DNA from: Desulfoferula mesophila
Lineage (GTDB): Bacteria; Desulfobacterota; Desulfarculia; Desulfarculales; Desulfarculaceae
Direction of reading: 5' to 3'
Assembly (NCBI RefSeq): GCF_037076455.1
Contig: NZ_AP028679.1
Span: 2,185,501-2,249,500 of the forward strand
DNA length: 64,000 nt
Position numbers and translations under genes: made by a program. A model generated the notes under the pieces. That model saw only the letters and a program-made list of their open reading frames with translations. It did no database searches and had not been told where the DNA came from. Position 1 is the first letter of the stretch; every line of letters starts with the position of its first letter. Shown piece after piece: positions 1,684 through 12,910 of the stretch.

Positions 1684-2241
1684 TTACCAACTGGGGGGAG
1701 TGACGACCCATACCAGCCGGCAGGGTTGCTTGGCCTCGTTGGTCCAGGCATGGGGTTGAGTGGAGGAATAGTAAAAGGAAGAACCGGCGGGAACCTGGTA
1801 GACGTTGTCGCCCAGGCGCAAGGTGAGTTCGCCCTCCAGAACCAAGCCGAACTCCTCGCCAACGTGATGATAATCTTCCTTGGCGCCTCCGCCGGGTTGG
1901 ATCACTGTGTAAAATGGCTGCATGTGGCGATGCTTGACCATGCGCACCATCTGCTTGATGTCCGCTTTCCAGCGGGGCAGGCTCACCCTGACCCATTGCG
2001 ATGGGTCGAGCACCACGGGATCCTCATCGGTTTCATCGTCAAAGAAATCCACGATCCTGGCTTCCAGGACCGCAGCGATTTTTTTCAGGGTAGCGATGGA
2101 GGGAGAGGCCTTGTCGTTTTCGATCTGAGATAAATGCGCCGCCGTGCAGTGGGCCTGTTTGGCCACCTGCTGCAAGGTAAGGTTTTTGGCCAACCTCAAT
2201 GCCCTTAATTTGCCGCCTAGTGTTTCCAAGGCCTCCGTCAC
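1684..2241 (-). CDS. XRE-family regulator with C-terminal cupin domain
   Basis: 185 aa. Residues about 10-65 form a Cro/C1-type helix-turn-helix (LTLQQVAKQAHCTAAHLSQI then ENDKASPS), and residues about 110-183 form a cupin barrel (EEFGLVLEGELTLRLGD, ending in PHAWTN). This HTH-cupin architecture is typical of single-component regulators that bind a small metabolite in the cupin. It is the first gene of a minus-strand unit with the enamidase and PF06684 genes and is divergent from dctP, so it most likely controls both directions through the 412-bp intergenic region and senses the N-heterocycle or a product (inference). Confidence 0.88.
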   Translation of the reverse strand: MTEALETLGGKLRALRLAKNLTLQQVAKQAHCTAAHLSQIENDKASPSIATLKKIAAVLEARIVDFFDDETDEDPVVLDPSQWVRVSLPRWKADIKQMVRMVKHRHMQPFYTVIQPGGGAKEDYHHVGEEFGLVLEGELTLRLGDNVYQVPAGSSFYYSSTQPHAWTNEAKQPCRLVWVVTPPSW

Positions 2242-2653: not shown

Positions 2654-3727
2654 ATGAGAAAGTCTGCTTGGTTGTTGGGCCTGTTCGCGGCGCTCATGAT
2701 CTGCTTCGGCGGATTCACCGGCGCCAAGGCGGCTGACGAGAAAAAGAGCATCCATATCAAGTTCTCCACCTGGCATCCCCCGATGAGCCGCGAGGTGAAA
2801 ACCGTATGGATTCCCATGCTGGAGGAACTCAAGAAACGCAGCAACGGCCGCATCACCTATACCCTCTATGCCGGCGGCGCCTTGGGCAAGGGCCCCGAGC
2901 ACTTTGACATCGTCAAAAACGGCCTGGCCGACATGGGCTACTTTACCGCCACCTGGACCCCGGGCCGCTTCCCCCTCACCGACGTGCTGTCCATGGCAAG
3001 TTGGGTGGACGGCAAGGACCTGGCCGCCAACATCGGCAACCAGGTATACGAAAAGGCCCTGCAGGAAGAGTTCAAGGGCGTCAAGGTGCTGGAACTCAAC
3101 GGCTGCATCCAGTCCTTCCTGTGGACCACCAAGCCGGTGCACACCCTGGAAGACCTGAAGGGCCTGAAGATCCGCACCCCCGGCGGCATGCAGACCGGCT
3201 ACATCAAGTCCCTGGGCGCCCAGCCCGTGTTCATGCCCTTGGGCGACGTTTACCTGGCCATGGAGACCGGCACCATCGACGGTCTGGTCACCTGCCCCCC
3301 GCTGGTTCTGGCCTTCAAGCTCTATGAAGTGGCCAAGTACGGCGTCAAGGCCACCTTCGGCTGCGTGTCCGAAGGCGTGATCATGAACGAGAAGTTCTGG
3401 AACAACACTCCCCCGGATCTGCAGAAGATCATCGTGGAGGTGGTGGGCAACCCCTTCGCCACCACCCACGGTCTGGACAAGAAGACCTACGCCCAGATGA
3501 TCACCGAGATCCAGGGCAAGGGCGTGAAGCTCTACACCCTGCCTCCCAAGGAGGAAGAGCGCTGGTTCACCCGCTTCCAGGAGGTCACCCGCAAGTGGGT
3601 GGCTGAAATGGAAAAGCAGGGCAAGCCCGCCAAGGAAGCCGTGATGATGTACACCAAGATCGTGGAGCAGGCCGGTTCCAAGTGCGTGGCCGCGCCCCCC
3701 GAGTGGCACACCGACGGAAAGAAGTAA
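2654..3727 (+). CDS. dctP: TRAP transporter periplasmic solute-binding protein (DctP family)
   Basis: 357 aa with a cleavable signal peptide at residues 1 to about 26 (hydrophobic core LLGLFAALMICFGG, cleavage after AKA). The mature part follows the DctP fold, with FSTWHPPM near its start, GLKIRTPGG and PLGDVYLAMETGTIDG. The ATG has AAGGAGG 9 bp upstream. This protein would capture a carboxylate in the periplasm for DctQM. Its operon position before a molybdenum hydroxylase and 6-hydroxynicotinate reductase makes nicotinate or a related heteroaromatic acid the likely ligand (inference; DctP sequences alone do not reveal the ligand). Confidence 0.93.
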   Translation: MRKSAWLLGLFAALMICFGGFTGAKAADEKKSIHIKFSTWHPPMSREVKTVWIPMLEELKKRSNGRITYTLYAGGALGKGPEHFDIVKNGLADMGYFTATWTPGRFPLTDVLSMASWVDGKDLAANIGNQVYEKALQEEFKGVKVLELNGCIQSFLWTTKPVHTLEDLKGLKIRTPGGMQTGYIKSLGAQPVFMPLGDVYLAMETGTIDGLVTCPPLVLAFKLYEVAKYGVKATFGCVSEGVIMNEKFWNNTPPDLQKIIVEVVGNPFATTHGLDKKTYAQMITEIQGKGVKLYTLPPKEEERWFTRFQEVTRKWVAEMEKQGKPAKEAVMMYTKIVEQAGSKCVAAPPEWHTDGKK

Positions 3728-3768
3728 CAACCTCATCGGCAGGATCGTGCCCATGATCGGGAGTGGAT

Positions 3769-4257
3769 ATGCAAGCGTATGAGAACGTAAAGGCCTTTAT
3801 CCAAAAGGTCACGCGAATACTGACCTACGTGGGCATGTTCCTGCTCATTCCCATGATGCTGTTGACGGCGGCCGAAGTGGTGGGCCGGGGCATTTGGTCC
3901 CGGCCCATCCCCGGCACCTTGGAGCTGTCCAGCTACATGCTGTCGATTTTTATCCTGCTGGGGCTGGCCTACACCCAGCAAGTCAGGGGTCACGTTAGGG
4001 TGACCATGTTCACCGACCGCCTGCCCGAGAAAGTGGCCCTGAGCATGGATGTCTTCACCACCCTGTTGAGCATCTTCATCATCGCCATGCTCTGCTGGCA
4101 AGGCTACAAGGTGGCCATGGAAGAGGTCTCGGTATCGGACATGCTGCGCGTCCCCCAGTATCCCTTCCGGATGCTGGTGGCGGTGGGAGCTTTTTTCCTG
4201 TGTCTGGAGTTGTTGTGCGATTTGGTGGACACCGTGCGCAGGCTGGCAGGTAAATGA
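3769..4257 (+). CDS. dctQ: TRAP transporter small membrane subunit (DctQ)
   Basis: 162 aa with four hydrophobic segments, beginning around MFLLIPMMLLTAAEVVGRG, as expected of DctQ. The ATG at 3769 is preferred because GGGAG lies 5 bp upstream; a GTG at 3763 in the same frame is the alternative. Its TGA overlaps the dctM start (ATGATGA), indicating translational coupling. It links the DctM channel to the binding protein. Confidence 0.9.
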   Translation: MQAYENVKAFIQKVTRILTYVGMFLLIPMMLLTAAEVVGRGIWSRPIPGTLELSSYMLSIFILLGLAYTQQVRGHVRVTMFTDRLPEKVALSMDVFTTLLSIFIIAMLCWQGYKVAMEEVSVSDMLRVPQYPFRMLVAVGAFFLCLELLCDLVDTVRRLAGK

Positions 4258-5567
4258 TGATTGATCCAGTAACCATAGGCGTAATCGGAACTATCGCCGT
4301 ATTCGTGCTGCTGTTCCTGGGTATGCCCATTGCCTTCGCCTTGATGCTGGTGGGCTTCTCGGGCATAAGCATGTTGGCCTCGGTCGACGCCGCCTTGCCC
4401 AAGGTGGCCAGCACGGTGTGGGAAGTCTCGTCCTTCTACCCCTACACCGTCATTCCCTTGTTTATCGTAATGGGAGGTTTTGCCAGCAGCTCGGGACTTA
4501 CCAGCGAGATGTACGGCACCTTTGACAAGTGGATGCGCCGTTTGCCCGGAGGTTTGGCCATAGCCACCATCGGGGCCTGTGGCGGCTTCTCGGCGGTTTC
4601 CGGCTCCTCGGTGGCCACCGCCGCGGCCATGGGCACCGTGGCCCTGCCGGAGATGAAGCGCTTCAATTACAAATCCAGCCTGGCGGCCGGGTCGGTGGCC
4701 GCGGGCGGCACCCTGGGCTTTTTGATCCCCCCCAGCATCGGCTTCGTGGTCTACGGCATGATCACCGAGCAATCCATCGGCAAGCTGTTGGTGGCGGGCA
4801 TGTTGCCGGGCGTCGTGCTGGGCTTGGCCTACGTGGGCATCGTCATCGCCTGGGTCAAGATGTACCCCGATGCGGCCCCCACAAGCCCGGAGCGGGTGAC
4901 CTGGGCCGAAAAGTTCGCCTCCCTCAAGGGCGTTTGGGAGCCTTTGGTGCTGTTCATGGTCGTCATGGGCGGCATCTACGCGGGATTCTTCACCCCCACC
5001 GAGGCCGGCGCGGTGGGCGCCACGGTCTTGTTCCTCGTGGCTCTCATCAAGAGGCGCCTTTCCTGGCAGGTGCTCATCGGGGCGCTGATCGAATCGGTGC
5101 GCATCTCGGTGATGGTGCTGTTTTTGGTGGCCGGAGCCAACGTGTTCAGCTACTTCCTGGCCCTGTCCACCATCCCCACCCAGGTGGCCGGCTGGGCGGC
5201 GAGCCTGGATGTCTCGCCCTACCTGATCCACACCGTCATCATCCTGATCTACCTTTTCCTGGGCTGCTTCCTGGACGCCATCTCCATGATGGTGCTCACC
5301 CTGCCGGTGATCTATCCCATCATCACCGCCTTGCACTTCGATCCCATCTGGTTCGGGGTCATCGCGGTGCTCATGATGGAGGCCGGTCTGATCACCCCGC
5401 CCATGGGCCTGAACATCTTCACCGTGGCGGGCGTTTCCCCGGACATAAAGCTGGAGACCATCTTCAAGGGGGTCGCTCCCTTCTTGCTGGCCATCTTCTT
5501 CGTGGCCTTTTTGATCACGGTCATCCCCGGCATCGCCACGCTTTTGCCCAACATGATGACCCGGTAG
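4254..5567 (+). CDS. dctM: TRAP transporter large permease subunit (DctM)
   Basis: 437 aa, highly hydrophobic with about 12 predicted membrane segments. DctM hallmarks include FLGMPIAFALM, SGSSVATAAAMG, FLIPPSIGFVVYG and FLDAISMMVLTLP. It starts at the first of two tandem ATGs overlapping the dctQ stop. It is the ion-coupled channel of the TRAP system. It ends 14 bp before the 2Fe-2S hydroxylase subunit, placing uptake and first oxidation in one operon. Confidence 0.94.
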   Translation: MMIDPVTIGVIGTIAVFVLLFLGMPIAFALMLVGFSGISMLASVDAALPKVASTVWEVSSFYPYTVIPLFIVMGGFASSSGLTSEMYGTFDKWMRRLPGGLAIATIGACGGFSAVSGSSVATAAAMGTVALPEMKRFNYKSSLAAGSVAAGGTLGFLIPPSIGFVVYGMITEQSIGKLLVAGMLPGVVLGLAYVGIVIAWVKMYPDAAPTSPERVTWAEKFASLKGVWEPLVLFMVVMGGIYAGFFTPTEAGAVGATVLFLVALIKRRLSWQVLIGALIESVRISVMVLFLVAGANVFSYFLALSTIPTQVAGWAASLDVSPYLIHTVIILIYLFLGCFLDAISMMVLTLPVIYPIITALHFDPIWFGVIAVLMMEAGLITPPMGLNIFTVAGVSPDIKLETIFKGVAPFLLAIFFVAFLITVIPGIATLLPNMMTR

Positions 5568-5581
5568 GGAGGTGTGTCCAA

Positions 5582-6064
5582 GTGGCGCTCAACTTCACTC
5601 TTAACGGCCATAAGGTGAGCCTGGAGGACGTGCCGGGCGAAGCCACCCTGTTGGAAGTGCTGCGCGGCCGCCTGGGCCTGTTGGGGGCCAAGGAGGGCTG
5701 CGGAGTGGGGGAGTGCGGCGCCTGCACCGTGCTCTTGGACGGCAAGGCCGTGGACTCCTGTCTAACCGCCGCCTGGCAGGCCGCCGGACGCCAAGTCGCC
5801 ACCGTGGAGGGCTTGGCCGTCGGCGACGAGCTGCATCCCATGCAAAAAGGCTTCGTGGAAACCGGCGCGGTGCAGTGCGGCTTTTGCACGCCGGGCATGA
5901 TCCTCACCGCCCTGGATTTGGTGGAGCAGAGCCCCGAGCCCAGCGACGAGCAGATACGCCGGGCCTTGTCGGGCAACCTGTGCCGCTGCACCGGTTACCA
6001 TGACGTGGTGCGCGCCGTGCGCCGGGGAGCCAAGTACATGCGCGGAGAAGGGGAGGAGGCATGA
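5582..6064 (+). CDS. Molybdenum hydroxylase 2Fe-2S subunit (nicotinate dehydrogenase small-subunit-like)
   Basis: 160 aa. The GTG start at 5582 sits 7 bp after GGGAGGTG. The N-terminal plant-ferredoxin-type cluster has C40, C45, C48 and C60 (CGVGECGACTVLLDG), and the second, helical 2Fe-2S site has C99, C102, C134 and C136 (QCGFCTPGM, LCRCTGY). This is the electron-transfer subunit of the xanthine dehydrogenase family. Its stop overlaps the FAD subunit start (ATGA), so the subunits are co-translated. Family members act on many heterocycles; nicotinate is proposed from the neighbouring hnr and ena genes. Confidence 0.9.
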   Translation: MALNFTLNGHKVSLEDVPGEATLLEVLRGRLGLLGAKEGCGVGECGACTVLLDGKAVDSCLTAAWQAAGRQVATVEGLAVGDELHPMQKGFVETGAVQCGFCTPGMILTALDLVEQSPEPSDEQIRRALSGNLCRCTGYHDVVRAVRRGAKYMRGEGEEA

Positions 6065-6921
6065 GCCGCTTCCTGACCCCCGCCACGCTGCCCGAGGCCC
6101 TGGAGGCCCTGGCCCGGCCCGGCGCTAAGGTCTTGGCCGGAGGCACCGACCTGATGATCGCCCTGCGCCAGGCCCGCCTGGAAGGCGCGGCCCTGCCCGA
6201 GTTGCTGGTGGACGTGACCCGCCTGCCCGAGCTGAAGCGCCTGGAGCTGGACGGCTCCGCCTGCTACCTGGGGGCTGGTTTGACGTTCCGCTATCTGGAA
6301 GAAAGCCCGGAGGTGAACCGCCGCCTGCCGGTTTTGGCCCAGGCCGCCTCCAAGGTGGGCTGCCAACAGATTCGCCAGACCGGCACCATCGGGGGCAACG
6401 TGGCCAACGGCTCCCCGGCGGCGGACAGCCTCAGCGCCCTGGTGGCCCTGGACGCGGTGGCCGAGATCGCCTCCCAGGAGGGGGTGCGCCACTGCCCCTT
6501 GCCCGAGCTGATCACCGCGCCCAACCGGACCACGCTGGCCCCCGGCGAGCTGATCCTGGGCTACGCCGTCAGCCCGCCCCCCGAGCCCGAAGGCCAGGTG
6601 TTCCTCAAGGTGGGCCGCCGCCACGAGGTGGCGGTGGCGCGGCTCAACCTGGCCGCCTGCCTGGACCGCGCCATGAACGACCCCCGGGTGGTGCTGGGCT
6701 CCTGCTTTCCCTCTCCCCGCCGCCTGACCGACGTGGAGGAGCTTGTCAAGAGCGGCGAGCCGGGCCCCGCGCTTTGGCAGGCCGCCGGCGACAAGGCGGC
6801 CGGCCACTTCACCGACGTGTGCGGCTGGCGCTCATCGGCCACCTACAAGGTCCCGGCCATCACCCGGATAACCGCCCGGGCCCTAAGCCTGGCCTGGGCC
6901 GGCCTGGAGGAGCGCTCATGA
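6061..6921 (+). CDS. Molybdenum hydroxylase FAD-binding subunit
   Basis: 286 aa, with a PCMH-type FAD fold (VLAGGTDLMIAL at about 24-34; RQTGTIGGNVANGSPAADS at about 105-123) and a CO dehydrogenase flavoprotein C-terminal region. It passes electrons from the iron-sulfur subunit to NAD(P) or another acceptor. It overlaps its neighbours by 4 bp on both sides, giving the usual S-F-L order of a heterotrimeric hydroxylase. Confidence 0.9.
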   Translation: MSRFLTPATLPEALEALARPGAKVLAGGTDLMIALRQARLEGAALPELLVDVTRLPELKRLELDGSACYLGAGLTFRYLEESPEVNRRLPVLAQAASKVGCQQIRQTGTIGGNVANGSPAADSLSALVALDAVAEIASQEGVRHCPLPELITAPNRTTLAPGELILGYAVSPPPEPEGQVFLKVGRRHEVAVARLNLAACLDRAMNDPRVVLGSCFPSPRRLTDVEELVKSGEPGPALWQAAGDKAAGHFTDVCGWRSSATYKVPAITRITARALSLAWAGLEERS

Positions 6922-9179
6922 GCCTGGGACAGAGCCTGATCCGGTTGGGCACCGAGGCCAAGGTGCGCGGCGAGACCCGCTACGGTTTTGACATGCCCCA
7001 GGATGGCGACCTGCAGATCGCCTGCGTGCGCGCCCCCAAGGCCCCGGCCCGCATCGTAAGCATCGACGCCCGCGGGGCCGAGGCCCTGCCCGGCGTGGTG
7101 CGGGTTTTCACCGCGGCCGACGTGCCCGGCGAGCACCGCCTGGGCATCATCGCGGTTACCCAGGACCAGGAGTTCCTGGCCCATGAGACGGTGCGCCAAC
7201 CCTACCAGTGCGTGGCCTTCGTGGTGGCCGAAACCCTGGAAGCGGCCCGGGCCGGTGCCCGCGCGGTAGAGGTCGAATACGATTTCTCCCCCGGCGTCTA
7301 TTCCTTTGACGAGGCCCTGGCCCCCGAGGCCCCCTTGGTGCAACCCGAGCATCCGGGCGGCAACCTGCTTCGGGAAAACAAGGTGCGCAAGGGGGACGCC
7401 GAGGCGGCCCTCAAGGATGCGGCCGTGGTGGTGGAGGCCACCTATACCACCGAGCGCCTGGAGCACTGCGCCATAGAGGTGGAAGGTGGCCGGGCCTGGT
7501 GGGAAGACGGCAAGGTGGTGGTCAAGGCCTGCTCCCAGAACCCCCACTACGACCAGGCCGACCTGGCCCGCTTCCTGGGGGTGGACGCGGACAAGGTGCG
7601 GGTGATTCAGGCCGAGACCGGCGGCGGCTTCGGGGGCAAACTGGACTTGTCCCTGCAACCCTTCCTGGCCCTGGCGGTGTGGCACCTCAAGCGCCCGGTG
7701 AGTCTGCGCTACAGCCGGGAAGAGTCCATCATGGCCACGGCCAAGCGCCACGCCCTGTGGATGCATTTCATCTCCGGGGCCGACGAACGGGGCAACATAA
7801 CCGCCCTCAAGGCCACCCTCAACGGGGACACCGGGGCCTTCGCCTCCTACGGCCTGGCGGTGAACCAGCGGGCGGCGGTGCACGCCACCGGCCCCTACCG
7901 CACCCCCAACGTGGACATCGTGGCCCGCATGGCCTACACCAACAACACCTTCAACGGAGCCATGCGCGGTTTCGGCTGCCCCCAGGTGGCCCTGGCCCAC
8001 GAGGCCCAGATGGACGCCATCGCCGCCGAGCTGGGCTTGGACCCCCTGGACCTGCGCAAGCAAAACGCCCTGCGCCAGGGCGACCACACCTGCACCGGCC
8101 AGTTGCTCAGGGCCGGGGTGGGCCTGCTGGAGTGCCTGGAGCGCATCGAGCCCATCTACCGCAAGTGGCAGGCCGAGGCCCGGCACACCGATGAGTACTA
8201 CGAAGGCGTGGGCGTGGGGGCCATGTACTACGGCATCGGCAATACCGGAGCCTCCAACCCCTCCACCGCCCAGGTGGAATGGCTGCCCAGCGGCCGGGTG
8301 ACCCTGTTCACCGGCGCGGCGGACATCGGCCAGGGCAGCGACACGGCCCTGCGCCAGATCGCCGCCGCCCGCTTGGGCCTGCCCGTGGAGCGGGTGGACG
8401 TGTGCCGGGGCGACACCGATCGGACCACCAACGCGGGGGCTACCTCGGCCAGCCGCCAGACCTATATCAGCGGCAACGCGGTGCTGGGCGCGGCGGCCAA
8501 TTTAGAGATGCAGCTCTTGCAGGGGGCGCGGGAGATGCTCAAGGAGCGTCATCTGGAGGTGGAACTCAAGGGCGGTATGCTCACCACCGCCGACGGCCGG
8601 CAGATCGATCCCGCCGAGGTGGTGTGCCATTTGGCCAAGTCCGGCGCGCGGGCCATGGGCGACGGCCGCTTTGATCCCAACTTCACCACCCTGGACCCGG
8701 AGACCGGCCAGGGCCGTCCCTACGCGGCCTACGCCTACGCGGCCCAGTGCGCTCGCGTGCGGGTGGACCGGGCCAGCGCCATGGTCAAGGTCACCGACGT
8801 GGCCGCGGCCCACGACGTGGGCCGGGCGGTGAACCCCCGCGCGGTGGAAGGCCAGATCAGCGGCGGCGTGGTCATGGGCGTGGGCATGGCCCTCATGGAA
8901 GAATACATCCAGGGCCGCACCGACAACTTGCAGTCCTATCACATACCCACCGCGGCCGACGCGCCCAACATCACCCCGCTCATCGTGGAAGACCCCGAGC
9001 CCTCCGGTCCCTACGGGGCCAAGGGGGTGGGGGAGCCCGCCCTGATCCCCACCGCTCCGGCCATCGCCGGCGCCGTGGGCCGGGCCCTGGGCCGCCCCAT
9101 GCGCCACCTGCCCATATCCCTGGAGCGGGTCATGGAGGCCCTCACCGCCGTTGAAGGAGACAAACACCGTGAAGATTGA
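6918..9179 (+). CDS. Molybdenum hydroxylase catalytic (molybdopterin) subunit, unsplit
   Basis: 753 aa from the ATG at 6918, which overlaps the FAD subunit stop. Family landmarks are GGGFGGK at 235-241, AMRGFGCP at 348-355 and the catalytic glutamate in KGVGEPAL at about E706. The enzyme hydroxylates an aromatic N-heterocycle with water-derived oxygen. In E. barkeri nicotinate dehydrogenase this region is divided into two polypeptides (NdhL and NdhM) and the active site carries labile selenium. Here it is one polypeptide, and a yqeC-like gene nearby makes a selenium-dependent form plausible. Substrate assignment rests on context. Confidence 0.9.
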   Translation: MSLGQSLIRLGTEAKVRGETRYGFDMPQDGDLQIACVRAPKAPARIVSIDARGAEALPGVVRVFTAADVPGEHRLGIIAVTQDQEFLAHETVRQPYQCVAFVVAETLEAARAGARAVEVEYDFSPGVYSFDEALAPEAPLVQPEHPGGNLLRENKVRKGDAEAALKDAAVVVEATYTTERLEHCAIEVEGGRAWWEDGKVVVKACSQNPHYDQADLARFLGVDADKVRVIQAETGGGFGGKLDLSLQPFLALAVWHLKRPVSLRYSREESIMATAKRHALWMHFISGADERGNITALKATLNGDTGAFASYGLAVNQRAAVHATGPYRTPNVDIVARMAYTNNTFNGAMRGFGCPQVALAHEAQMDAIAAELGLDPLDLRKQNALRQGDHTCTGQLLRAGVGLLECLERIEPIYRKWQAEARHTDEYYEGVGVGAMYYGIGNTGASNPSTAQVEWLPSGRVTLFTGAADIGQGSDTALRQIAAARLGLPVERVDVCRGDTDRTTNAGATSASRQTYISGNAVLGAAANLEMQLLQGAREMLKERHLEVELKGGMLTTADGRQIDPAEVVCHLAKSGARAMGDGRFDPNFTTLDPETGQGRPYAAYAYAAQCARVRVDRASAMVKVTDVAAAHDVGRAVNPRAVEGQISGGVVMGVGMALMEEYIQGRTDNLQSYHIPTAADAPNITPLIVEDPEPSGPYGAKGVGEPALIPTAPAIAGAVGRALGRPMRHLPISLERVMEALTAVEGDKHRED

Positions 9180-10692
9180 TCTGGAGCGCTGCAACGGCTG
9201 CGGACTGTGCGTAAAGGACTGCCCGGTGGCGGCCATATCCCTGCAAGACAAAAAAGCGGTCATCGGCCCCTCCTGCGTGGAGTGCCACACCTGTTTCCGG
9301 GTGTGCCCGCGCGGCGCGGCGCTGGACGAGCCGGTGCCCGTGGCCGGGGCCAAGGAATGCACCCACTGCCCGGTGGGCTGCCGCATTCCCGAGGGCCTTA
9401 CCGGAGCCTGCGGCCGCTATAAAAACCAGGGCCATGAGCTGGTGCGCAGCCGCCCCTTGCTCACCTACGCCGAGGTGGCCGCCGAGGTGGGGCCCGAACC
9501 GGAGTTGCTGATCGAGCGCCCCAGCATCACCGCCATCGGGGCGGGGGGCACCTATCCCGACTACGTGCCCGCGCCCTATATCGTCAGCCACGAGCGCGAC
9601 GGGGTGGAGGTGGTCACCGTGGTCACCGAGGCCCCGCTGTCCTACTCCGGGCTCAAGGTGAAGATCGACACCGACCTGGAGGTGGGCGAGGAAGGCGCGC
9701 CCATCACCTTCGAGGGCCGCACCGTGGGCATGGTGGAGACCGAGGAGTACGGCTCCAAGATGCTGGCCATCGGCGGGGTCAACCGCCTGACCGGGCGGCA
9801 CGGCTTTGCCGCGGCCCGGGCGGTGGCGGCCATCGCCAACCGCGAGGCGGTGCGGCTCAAGGTCAAGGGCGGGGCCAAGCTGGAACTCCAGGTGGGCCAA
9901 CCGCCGGTCATCGACGGCCAACTGGTGGAAAAAATGCGGGTGGGCTGCGGCTCGGCCTCGGCCGGGCTTTTCGCCACCTTCTTCCTGGACGCGGCCGACG
10001 AGGTGATCGTGCTGGACCAGCACATCACCAGCCTGTTCAGCCATCACGCGGCCGGGCGTTGCCTGGGCCTGGCTCCTGGCGGGGTGGAGCTTTGCTTCCA
10101 ACGCTCCACGCCAGGGCGCTACTTCGGCACCCACGGCAAGGGCTGGGGCGGCACCGACCTGGCCGACCCCCTGGACATCGTGAAGCAGGTGGACACCGGC
10201 CTGACCAAGCCGGGATCGACCCTACTCATCACCGAGACCACCGGCCAGAACGCGGCCATGTACGTTTTGGGCGAGGACGGCAAGTTCGCCCCCACCGAGC
10301 TGAGCGACAAGGCCCAGCAGGCCGTGGCCGCCCTGGCCGAGACCTGCCAGCGCTCGCTGGTATCGGCGGTGTACGTGGGCGGGGCCGGAGGCTCGGCCCG
10401 GGCCGGTGTGGCTCGCTATCCCCTGCGCCTGACCCACGCGGTGCACGCGGCCAAGGCGGTGCTCACCTGCGGCGGGGCCAAGGTGTTCGTGCTGCCCGGG
10501 GGAGGCATCACCTTCTACGTGGACGTGGAAAAGGTGCGCTCCGGGGCCTTCACCTGGGTGCCCACCCCGGCCACGGTGGCCCCCATCGAATACACCATGC
10601 GCCTTAGCGACTACGAAGAGATGGGCGGCCATCTGGAAGCGGTGAAACCCTTCGCGGCCCAGGAACCGGTGCCATGGAACCGGTGCAAGTAA
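9169..10692 (+). CDS. hnr: 6-hydroxynicotinate reductase-like iron-sulfur protein
   Basis: 507 aa from the GTG at 9169, which has AAGGAG 9 bp upstream and overlaps the hydroxylase gene by 11 bp; an in-frame TTG at 9151 is less likely. The N-terminus is a 2x[4Fe-4S] ferredoxin domain (C8, C11, C14, C18; C36, C39, C42, C46) followed by more cysteines (C64, C67, C71, C81). The long C-terminal region matches my recollection of Hnr, which uses reduced ferredoxin to convert 6-hydroxynicotinate to 1,4,5,6-tetrahydro-6-oxonicotinate, the enamidase substrate. Hnr is rare, and its pairing with enamidase is the strongest evidence for the pathway. Confidence 0.8.
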   Translation: MKIDLERCNGCGLCVKDCPVAAISLQDKKAVIGPSCVECHTCFRVCPRGAALDEPVPVAGAKECTHCPVGCRIPEGLTGACGRYKNQGHELVRSRPLLTYAEVAAEVGPEPELLIERPSITAIGAGGTYPDYVPAPYIVSHERDGVEVVTVVTEAPLSYSGLKVKIDTDLEVGEEGAPITFEGRTVGMVETEEYGSKMLAIGGVNRLTGRHGFAAARAVAAIANREAVRLKVKGGAKLELQVGQPPVIDGQLVEKMRVGCGSASAGLFATFFLDAADEVIVLDQHITSLFSHHAAGRCLGLAPGGVELCFQRSTPGRYFGTHGKGWGGTDLADPLDIVKQVDTGLTKPGSTLLITETTGQNAAMYVLGEDGKFAPTELSDKAQQAVAALAETCQRSLVSAVYVGGAGGSARAGVARYPLRLTHAVHAAKAVLTCGGAKVFVLPGGGITFYVDVEKVRSGAFTWVPTPATVAPIEYTMRLSDYEEMGGHLEAVKPFAAQEPVPWNRCK

Positions 10693-11555
10693 TACGGCCC
10701 GACCTGGTCCTGGTGGACTGGGGCCCCATGACCCTGACCATAGCCGCTTGGCAAAACGACGAACCCCGCCCGGTGATGGCCGCCCAGGCCGCCCGGGCGG
10801 CTTTGCGTTGTCTCGCGGTGCTGGCCGAATTCCAAGGCTACATGCGCCGCCGGGTGCGCGAGCTGCCCGCCGGGCGGCCGCTGCCGCCGGTGGTGGAACG
10901 GGCGGCCCGGGCCTGCCGGGCGATTGACGGCGGGCTGACCCCCCTGGCGGCGGTGGCCGGGGCGGTGGCCGACGAGGTGGCTGATTTCGCCCTCAGCCTG
11001 GGAGCCGACCGGGTGGTGGTGAACAACGGCGGGGACATCGCGGTGCGCCTGTCGCCGGGGCAAACCCTCAAGGTGGGGGTGAAACCGCCGGACCGGGAAG
11101 CAGGGGAGGCCTCGCCGCTCATGGGGCGCCTGAACCTCCGCGGCGGTGACGGTATCGGCGGGGTGGCTTCCAGCGGTTGGCAGGGCCGCAGCCACAGCTC
11201 CGGCGTGGCCGATCTGGTCACGGTGTGGGCCGGGGACGCCGCCCTGGCCGATGCGGCGGCCACCTCCCTGGGCAACGCGGCCCAAGCCCAAGGCGCGCGC
11301 CAGGCTTCGGCCCGCGAGATCGACCCGGACAGCGGCCTGGGCGAGCAAAAGATCACCACCGCAGTGGAGCCTTTGCCCAGGGAGCAGCGGCTCGAGGCCC
11401 TGCGTGGGGCCCGCGAGGCGGCACTCCGCCTGCACCAGCGGGGGCTTATCAAGGGCTGCCTGGTGCTGGTGCAGGGTGAGGCCCTGCTTCTGGACCAAGA
11501 CCAGCGAATCGCCTTGGCCGGGCCGGCTGCCTCGGGCAAACTTCTCGCCGCCTAA
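10674..11555 (+). CDS. UPF0280 family protein (ApbE-like fold)
   Basis: 293 aa. Sequence such as FALSLGADRVVVNNGGDIAV and the GGVASSGWQGRSHSSGVAD region match the UPF0280 family, distantly related to ApbE/FMN transferases. It overlaps the hnr end by 19 bp and is clearly in its operon, so an accessory role for Hnr (cofactor attachment or maturation) is a reasonable but untested idea. It meets the convergent mobA-yqeC gene with a 4-bp overlap. Confidence 0.78.
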   Translation: MEPVQVIRPDLVLVDWGPMTLTIAAWQNDEPRPVMAAQAARAALRCLAVLAEFQGYMRRRVRELPAGRPLPPVVERAARACRAIDGGLTPLAAVAGAVADEVADFALSLGADRVVVNNGGDIAVRLSPGQTLKVGVKPPDREAGEASPLMGRLNLRGGDGIGGVASSGWQGRSHSSGVADLVTVWAGDAALADAAATSLGNAAQAQGARQASAREIDPDSGLGEQKITTAVEPLPREQRLEALRGAREAALRLHQRGLIKGCLVLVQGEALLLDQDQRIALAGPAASGKLLAA

Positions 11556-12910
11556 TCCCCCTCCCGCAAAACCTGGCAAGCGCCCTGCAAAAAGCTGGTG
11601 AGCAGCACCCGCAGCGATGGGTCTTGTTGCCCGATAAGCTCGGCCACCTGGTTGGCGGCCTGTTCCGCGCCGGCCAGGTCGCCCTGGTTGAGCACCAACA
11701 CCTTGCGGCAGCGGGCCGGGGCCTTCTTGAATAGACCCTTGGGGTGCAGGGCCAGCGCCGCCAAATGAGCCGCTTGCACCGGGTCGCCGGGCGCGGCGCC
11801 GCTCAGGGCGCACAGCTCCTTGGCTCCCGTGACGTGTTCCTCGTCCAGCGGCCGGCCCAGGGCGGCCAGGCCCACGACCCCTACCAGCAGAGTGGTGGAT
11901 AGCGGAATGACCGGTTCATGGGAGCGAGGGGCCTTGAGGGGCAGGCGACGAGCTCCGTCCGCCTCCACCAGGATGAGCGGAACCAGGGCCGTCTCCCACA
12001 GCCAGTCCACGCTCTGGGGGGGCAGGCCTTTAAGCTTGATCCGCCCCTCCGTTGTTTTCGCTTCCGAGGCCACGGTTAGGCAGGCGCCGGGGGCCAGCAG
12101 CCGCTCGATGCGCTCGGGCAGCCAGTCCTCGTGGGGCTCGATAAGCACCGAGCCGCTGGGGCGAAAGACATGGGTGGTGGTGGTGGCCAGCACCGCCTTG
12201 CCGCGCATTGCCTGTTCGCTGGCCAGGGCCTCGATAAGGCTGGTCTTGCCTCCCGCCCCCACGACGCTTACCAAGTCGCCCCGCTCCAGCTCCAGCACCA
12301 GGCTAAAGCGGCCCCTGAGCGCCGCCTCGGCCCGGCCGAGCTGCCCGGGGGTGTCCACGTCCAGACCGGCCAGGGGAAAGTCGGGCGCAAGCGGCAAGAC
12401 CTCGTCGCGGTACTTGTCCAGCACGCCGCGCCCCCCGGTGTCGCCGGTCAATTGCAGAAGCTCGGGCCAATAGCGGCGGTCGAACAGGGTAGGGGGAGAA
12501 AAGGAATCGGGTCCGGCCAGGGCGGCCAGGTCGTTGTCTTCCTCGGCGGCCTGCACAAAACGGTCGATGAGAGCTGATGAGATCAAGGGCTGGTCGGCCA
12601 GCAAGAACAGGGCGTGGCTTGGTTCATCGCCCAGGGCCCGCAGGCCCAGGCGCAGGGAAGAGGCCTGGCCGTCCTGGGGGTTGGGATTGACCACTACCTC
12701 GAGCTGGGGAAAGGCCTGGGTCAATTCCGCGGCCTGCTCCGCACCGGCCACCAGCACCACCCGGCCCAGGCGGGAGGCCAGGGCCGCCTCGACGCACCAA
12801 GCTATCAAGGGGCGCTCGGCCAGGGGGGCGGCGAGTTTCGCCCCGCCGAAGCGGGTGGCCAATCCGGCGGCCAGAATTACGCCGGCGACTTCACTCTGGG
12901 GTAAAGCCAT
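11552..12910 (-). CDS. MobA-like nucleotidyltransferase fused to YqeC-like selenium hydroxylase accessory domain
   Basis: 452 aa with two domains. Residues 1 to about 190 are a MobA/MocA-type NTP transferase (VILAAGLATRFGGAKL; LLADQPLIS) of the kind that makes molybdopterin cytosine dinucleotide for xanthine dehydrogenase-type enzymes. Residues about 200-440 resemble YqeC, with a P-loop VVGAGGKTSL, TTTTHVF and VEADGARRLPLKAP. YqeC genes co-occur with selenium-dependent molybdenum hydroxylases. Fusion of the two suggests one protein serving maturation of the upstream hydroxylase. It is the last gene of the minus-strand mrp-nfu-queC unit and converges on the hnr operon. Confidence 0.85.
   Translation of the reverse strand: MALPQSEVAGVILAAGLATRFGGAKLAAPLAERPLIAWCVEAALASRLGRVVLVAGAEQAAELTQAFPQLEVVVNPNPQDGQASSLRLGLRALGDEPSHALFLLADQPLISSALIDRFVQAAEEDNDLAALAGPDSFSPPTLFDRRYWPELLQLTGDTGGRGVLDKYRDEVLPLAPDFPLAGLDVDTPGQLGRAEAALRGRFSLVLELERGDLVSVVGAGGKTSLIEALASEQAMRGKAVLATTTTHVFRPSGSVLIEPHEDWLPERIERLLAPGACLTVASEAKTTEGRIKLKGLPPQSVDWLWETALVPLILVEADGARRLPLKAPRSHEPVIPLSTTLLVGVVGLAALGRPLDEEHVTGAKELCALSGAAPGDPVQAAHLAALALHPKGLFKKAPARCRKVLVLNQGDLAGAEQAANQVAELIGQQDPSLRVLLTSFLQGACQVLREGD

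Follow-up and report, generated by a model that had tools for sequence, protein, structure and literature searches.

A probable selenium-dependent nicotinate dehydrogenase and a MocA-YqeC fusion gene in a proposed anaerobic nicotinate-degradation locus of Desulfoferula mesophila

Genes of the locus

The window, that is, the whole stretch of 64,000 nucleotides that we analysed, lies in a single-contig genome of 4.48 Mb (98.7% complete). Three consecutive genes on its forward strand encode the subunits of a putative nicotinate dehydrogenase (NDH). The small subunit (NdhS-like, 5582-6064, with a GTG at 5582 as the start predicted from the sequence) has Fer2 and Fer2_2 domains for two [2Fe-2S] clusters, and the FAD subunit (NdhF-like, 6061-6921) has FAD_binding_5 and CO_deh_flav_C domains and 3hrd_C among its best matches in the PDB. 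The molybdenum subunit (6918-9179) is a single open reading frame of 753 amino acid residues with intact Ald_Xan_dh_C, MoCoBD_1, and MoCoBD_2 domains. Residues 3-410 align with NdhL (3hrd_A) and residues 429-745 with NdhM (3hrd_B) of the Eubacterium barkeri NDH; thus, the gene does encode as one polypeptide what the clostridial selenium enzyme has as two, as a first reading of the sequence alone (hereafter the sequence-only reading) had proposed.

We compared the two halves of the molybdenum subunit with the PDB separately. The top match of the N-terminal half was NdhL (321 bits; runner-up, 168 bits) and that of the C-terminal half was NdhM (242 bits; runner-up, 149 bits), with 306 of the 719 residues aligned to NdhL and NdhM identical. 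The E. barkeri active-site residues Gln208L, Phe353L, Tyr13M, and Glu289M correspond to Q207, F352, Y438, and E706 in the window. The NCBIfam equivalog models that matched this subunit all scored under their cut-offs, and the model of the selenium-dependent xanthine dehydrogenase ranked first. According to the literature on the E. barkeri nicotinate system (PMC5746545, PMC9304392, PMC10331938), selenium is a terminal ligand of the molybdenum in its NDH, and Tyr13M was modelled as binding the ring nitrogen of nicotinate (both PMC5746545). We infer from these similarities that the hydroxylase is the NDH of an anaerobic nicotinate-degradation cluster.

The rest of the locus supplied the pathway context that identifies the substrate, which the sequence-only reading had overlooked, although it had placed the hydroxylase gene and the fusion gene described below correctly. 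The product of the gene at 498-1655 on the reverse strand matched the E. barkeri enamidase (2vun) over its full length with 466 bits, and the next PDB chain with 44 bits; its metal-ligand and catalytic motifs are conserved in the alignment. Beside it lies a gene for a transcription regulator with HTH_3 and Cupin_2 domains (1684-2241, reverse strand), relatives of which adjoin the clusters L141, L142, L143, L145, L146, and others. On the forward strand, sequence and synteny point to a TRAP transporter, probably for the uptake of nicotinate: the binding protein DctP (2654-3727), relatives of which adjoin many clusters, the small membrane subunit DctQ (3763-4257), assigned from its sequence and its position between DctP and DctM, and the large membrane subunit DctM (4254-5567; PF06808, E 2.6e-93).

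Downstream of the NDH genes, the forward-strand gene at 9151-10692 (true start probably a GTG near 9170) encodes an N-terminal 2[4Fe-4S] domain (Fer4) and a large conserved domain. We regard it as a candidate 6-hydroxynicotinate reductase (Hnr) from its synteny and from the E. barkeri pathway; it adjoins NDH and the enamidase in complete loci, and our PDB search found no solved Hnr homologue. Directly 3' of it, in a conserved arrangement, lies a gene for a UPF0280/ApbE-like protein (10674-11555, forward strand; NF003322/PRK04334, 191 bits against a cut-off of 290; ApbE PF02424, just under its cut-off), which is possibly a flavin-transferase relative serving Hnr.

Just outside the window, at genome positions 2183856-2185364 on the reverse strand, lies a gene for an aldehyde dehydrogenase, 633 bp from the enamidase gene and on the same strand. 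Methylmalonate-semialdehyde dehydrogenase (MMSDH) accounted for all ten of its PDB matches at the threshold used, and 5tjr and 1t90 are its best solved relatives. TIGR01722 was its best model, although the score (341 bits) was under the subfamily cut-off of 448.5 bits and the substrate proposed here, 2-formylglutarate, is a different one. Like MMSDH, the protein has NGNGKN at the site where NAD-dependent aldehyde dehydrogenases have their general-base Glu. Of the 20 Hnr loci that we took from elsewhere in the phylum, 11 have the gene beside the cluster, as do three genomes of the same genus; we saw it in no Firmicutes locus. Like methylmalonate semialdehyde, 2-formylglutarate belongs to the 3-oxo acids, and its CoA-dependent oxidation with loss of CO2 would therefore yield glutaryl-CoA. 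The chemistry and the synteny together suggest this short route.

The products of the locus would then act in series. The TRAP transporter would import nicotinate, the three-subunit Mo/FAD/[2Fe-2S] NDH would hydroxylate it to 6-hydroxynicotinate, the Hnr-like ferredoxin-domain reductase would convert this to 1,4,5,6-tetrahydro-6-oxonicotinate, the enamidase would open the ring to give 2-formylglutarate, and the MMSDH-like enzyme would probably convert the latter to glutaryl-CoA and CO2. Like E. barkeri NdhFSLM (3HRD), the window enzyme has its molybdenum, FAD, and [2Fe-2S] subunits encoded in one cluster and keeps the active-site residues; as among the E. barkeri nicotinate-fermentation genes, an enamidase and a candidate Hnr are clustered with NDH. 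The window locus differs in its unsplit molybdenum subunit, the TRAP transporter, the MMSDH-like aldehyde dehydrogenase, and the adjacent MocA-YqeC fusion.

The MocA-YqeC fusion gene

The gene at 11552-12910 on the reverse strand is convergent with the UPF0280/ApbE-like gene, with a 4-bp overlap, and is one open reading frame of 452 amino acid residues. A MobA/MocA-like nucleotidyltransferase domain spans about residues 10-189 (PF12804, 122 bits; TIGR03310, 123 bits, under the 186-bit equivalog cut-off), and a YqeC domain spans about residues 214-428 (PF19842; TIGR03172, 180.5 bits, cut-off 73) with the P-loop GAGGKTS and the other invariant YqeC residues intact. The convergent gene joining the two domains, as first read from the sequence, is thus real. 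Six further genomes, four of this genus and two from elsewhere in the family, have the same fusion, which is therefore no assembly error.

In our sample, real MocA-YqeC fusions were found only in the family of the window (G000, G049, G083, G111, G181, G282, and G319). A fusion in the reversed order, YqeC-MocA, with both domains complete, was found in G233 (L072, 8648-9988, reverse strand), which implies at least two independent fusions. Outside these fusions, MocA and YqeC are commonly encoded by separate neighbouring genes. The sequence-only reading had treated the fusion as remarkable and tied to the hydroxylase; however, G319 has its fusion gene and its NDH cluster on different contigs, and Zhang et al. 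had already listed a YqeC-MobA (HP2-COG2068) fusion in Moorella thermoacetica in 2008 (Table 1 of PMC2432076). The Moorella protein has the same two domains and a similar length (about 455 codons), and its genome also has SelD and YqeB. It comes from a different phylum, and the paper is silent on the domain order. Two genes that serve one maturation pathway have thus been joined repeatedly, and the fusion does not mark the hydroxylase.

Several other apparent fusions were rejected. That of G163 consists of a cut MocA and a YqeC without the P-loop in a genome of 950 contigs, and is probably a rearrangement or an assembly artefact. The long frames around YqeC in family f9 have a methyltransferase-like extra domain instead (tested in L062), and in f19 and others the stretch upstream of YqeC resembles, by eye, an out-of-frame reading of a GC-rich gene. 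An AlphaFold2 model of the fusion protein, made without an alignment, had a mean pLDDT of 38 and was discarded.

The methyltransferase-like domain is an observation of its own. In L062 (9099-10484, forward strand) and also in L063-L066, YqeC carries it at the N-terminus within the same open reading frame (Methyltransf_25/11, tested in L062), and several GC-rich families seem to have a comparable stretch immediately 5' of YqeC, in another frame. We know of no description that links a methyltransferase to the maturation of selenium hydroxylases.

Selenium genes and their co-occurrence with the pathway

The lack of selD in the genome had been named in the sequence-only reading as grounds for abandoning a selenium enzyme; we found selD, yqeB, and yqeC all present. 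The selD gene scores well over the cut-off and has an in-frame TGA (AAG-U-AAK), at what we take to be the position of the catalytic Cys of SelD (Cys17-equivalent); thus, SelD itself appears to be a selenoprotein. There is one copy of yqeB, over the cut-off and about 270 kb from the locus, and one copy of yqeC, which occurs only as the fusion. Elsewhere, the genome has a single gene of the XdhC family and another MocA-like gene, of the DVU_1551 type. As in the set of accessory genes of selenium-dependent molybdenum hydroxylases described by Haft and Self in 2008 (PMC2276186), selD, yqeB, yqeC, and a ygfJ/mocA-like domain occur in one genome with molybdenum hydroxylases; unlike in that set, the hydroxylase here is distant from both yqeB and selD, and mocA and yqeC are fused. 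Two other organisms, a Desulfobacteraceae MAG (L177, 7206) and Clostridium magnum (L197, 16764), have yqeB near the nicotinate cluster, a physical link that is absent from the window genome.

We compared the 20 Hnr loci from elsewhere in the phylum with the three genomes of the same genus. Every locus of sufficient length showed the order FeS-FAD-Mo-(enamidase)-Hnr-ApbE-like; DctP/DctM usually accompany it, and the MMSDH-like aldehyde dehydrogenase often does. We also scanned 84,980 species genomes with an Hnr alignment, and the matches listed serve as examples, not counts. Among them, the same set occurs in Firmicutes, for example in C. magnum, Acetobacterium bakii, Eubacterium aggregans, and Desulfosporosinus. 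A related set occurs in aerobic Alpha- and Betaproteobacteria, in which Hnr has no ferredoxin domain and many FeS domains are fused to the molybdenum subunit. The matches listed also include Hnr and ApbE-like genes in records of Hecatellales and Archaeoglobi (L198 and L205), with an enamidase in Archaeoglobi too; the Archaeoglobi locus had no molybdenum subunit within the stretch examined, and the Archaeoglobi genome carries YqeB.

All complete molybdenum subunits of Desulfobacterota that we examined are single chains. The split was found only in some Firmicutes (L180, L186, L193, L195, and L201-L204); L182, L197, L199, and L200 have the unsplit form, and among these Firmicutes relatives YqeB accompanies both states. 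Since the unsplit form is the usual one and YqeB goes with both forms, it is uninformative on selenium, and the sequence-only reading gave this ordinary feature too much weight. We do not treat the splitting into L and M as a defining trait of the E. barkeri-type NDH.

The co-occurrence of the pathway with YqeB was more telling. In the 394 genomes of the phylum, YqeC was over the cut-off in 109 and YqeB in 107; for the counts we used the 111 genomes with YqeB at E <= 1e-30, all of which (111/111) have an enzyme of the xanthine oxidase (XO) family. SelD was over the cut-off in 353 of the 394 genomes and is too common to discriminate in this phylum. Hnr was found in 55 genomes of 17 families, and 54 of these have YqeB and 53 have YqeC. 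As a control for merely having molybdenum hydroxylases, we restricted the comparison to the 183 genomes with an XO-family enzyme. YqeB was present in 54/55 with Hnr versus 57/128 without it (Fisher p 7e-14) and, in genomes with at least three such enzymes, in 52/53 versus 37/56 (Fisher p 8e-6). These p-values are descriptive, since related genomes are not independent and shared ancestry was ignored, though 17 families are represented. Outside the phylum, YqeB was found in 11 of 12 anaerobic carriers of the pathway and in 0 of 12 aerobic proteobacterial carriers (p 1e-5), in a chosen set of 24 genomes that had been sorted by hand into anaerobes and aerobes by organism name and locus type before the search. 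The exceptions were G041, which has the cluster without YqeB or YqeC, G226, in which YqeC is missing, and the Bacillota MAG that L182 comes from, in which YqeB is missing. This co-occurrence is our strongest new evidence; together with the identity of the pathway, it is more interesting than the unsplit subunit or the fusion.

Selenium or sulfur, and the role of YqeC

With selD, yqeB, and yqeC present, a selenium-containing enzyme as the closest characterised relative, and a nearly total co-occurrence of the pathway with YqeB, the selenium-dependent hydroxylase first suggested by the sequence is likely, and the genome evidence supports it well. We conclude that the locus is an anaerobic nicotinate-degradation cluster whose NDH very probably belongs to the Mo=Se type. 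SelD would produce selenophosphate; YqeB, the gene for which lies elsewhere, would help to put selenium on the molybdenum together with the YqeC domain; and the fused MocA domain would add CMP to molybdopterin.

The addition of CMP to Mo-molybdopterin is the most likely role of the MocA domain. In YqeC, the motifs kept across 24 relatives are the P-loop (GxGGKT), TTTT, EADG, and KAP..EP, and the PDB profile matches, to FtsY- and ArsA-like NTPases, were weak and confined to the P-loop region; these features make an NTP-driven delivery or loading step plausible. That one protein handles both cofactor nucleotide addition and selenium maturation, as the sequence-only reading had it, is an interpretation, and a yqeC deletion in Clostridioides difficile had no clear phenotype (PMC11448449). 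In that organism, a yqeB deletion mimics the loss of selD on purines and the yqeC deletion shows little, and yqeB gave only a partial rescue of the double mutant (PMC11448449). The experiments so far support YqeB more than YqeC. The YqeC domain of the fusion might instead act on the MCD cofactor only as an adaptor, either in handling nucleotides or as a chaperone, with no direct role in selenium, a view compatible with the rest of our explanation. The P-loop with its weak FtsY/ArsA-like matches and the contrast in growth phenotype between the two single deletions speak for such an adaptor, but the joint occurrence of YqeC and YqeB in 106 of the 394 genomes (five and three genomes had only one of them) and the incomplete rescue by yqeB speak against it, and we consider it unlikely, though still a serious contender. 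The 'YqeC' of a paper on Geobacter metallireducens is an unrelated Bacillus subtilis protein and was set aside.

A second alternative is that NDH is an ordinary sulfido enzyme, with the fusion and YqeB serving one or more other molybdenum hydroxylases of the genome, and that the position of the fusion next to NDH is due to chance or to MCD supply only. The genome encodes seven other XO-family large subunits, which are possible clients of the maturation genes; yqeB is unlinked to the locus, and the fusion and the NDH cluster of G319 are on separate contigs; YqeB also occurs in 57 genomes without Hnr; and the aerobic relatives, presumably sulfido enzymes, share the main active-site residues. However, the association of the pathway with YqeB (54/55) holds after conditioning on the number of molybdenum hydroxylases, anaerobes and aerobes with the same pathway differ in YqeB, and the closest characterised enzyme contains selenium (PMC5746545). 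We therefore think a sulfido NDH improbable. That the cluster acts on another N-heterocycle (e.g., a substituted pyridine or a purine-derived ring) seems very remote: although the entire gene set was assigned by homology and the equivalog models stayed under their cut-offs with a xanthine dehydrogenase model on top, the enamidase is far closer to the nicotinate-pathway enzyme (466 bits) than to any other chain (44 bits), the top matches are specific to NDH with Tyr13M and other residues kept, and the same gene set occurs in E. aggregans, which has an NDH almost identical to that published for E. barkeri.

Phylogeny of the molybdenum subunit

Returning to a selenium-containing NDH, we examined its relatives in a tree made by a quick search and rooted at the midpoint. 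The window sequence fell in a Desulfobacterota group and the E. barkeri NDH in a Firmicutes group. The aerobic sequences formed one group (SH-aLRT 96), joined to the Desulfobacterota with a support of 94. This topology allows either a loss of selenium in the aerobic branch or two gains. The residues that separate anaerobes from aerobes include N208, H210, Q231, Y311, and Q364 of the window enzyme; they are only candidates, because the groups are also separated by descent. Met653, which is Gln in most aerobes, was rejected as a selenium marker, as Met also occurs at this position in 4-hydroxybenzoyl-CoA reductase and in four of five paralogues checked.

We tentatively put forward a wider picture, to which we give somewhat less than even weight. 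Selenium would be the rule in the NDHs of anaerobes (Desulfobacterota, Firmicutes, and perhaps some archaea) and sulfur in the aerobic proteobacterial branch, a natural switch between the two elements for which N208, Q231, and Y311, for example, are candidates; and in Desulfobacterota the MMSDH-like route from 2-formylglutarate to glutaryl-CoA would replace the methyleneglutarate-mutase branch of E. barkeri. Of the uses that bacteria make of selenium, the placement of the labile atom on molybdenum is the one understood least (PMC11448449). One pathway found with YqeB in dozens of genomes and without it in aerobic relatives offers a clean comparison set for the roles of YqeB and YqeC and for selenium-linked residues. 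A further prediction of our reading is that many sulfate-reducing and syntrophic bacteria degrade nicotinate, by a shorter route to central metabolism.

Within the window genome, the closest paralogue of the NDH molybdenum subunit (L022, G000:C1 about 727,500) scored 560 bits against it. The Phe, Tyr, and Glu positions of the active site are kept in this paralogue, and Lys replaces Gln at the Gln208L position. Two inverted copies of a 3.45-kb segment, at around 999,000 (L019, 6816-10259) and 2,839,000 (L020, 7974-11417) of G000:C1, each encode a full-length large subunit of a molybdenum hydroxylase; the copies are 97.3% identical, which points to a recent duplication inside the genome.
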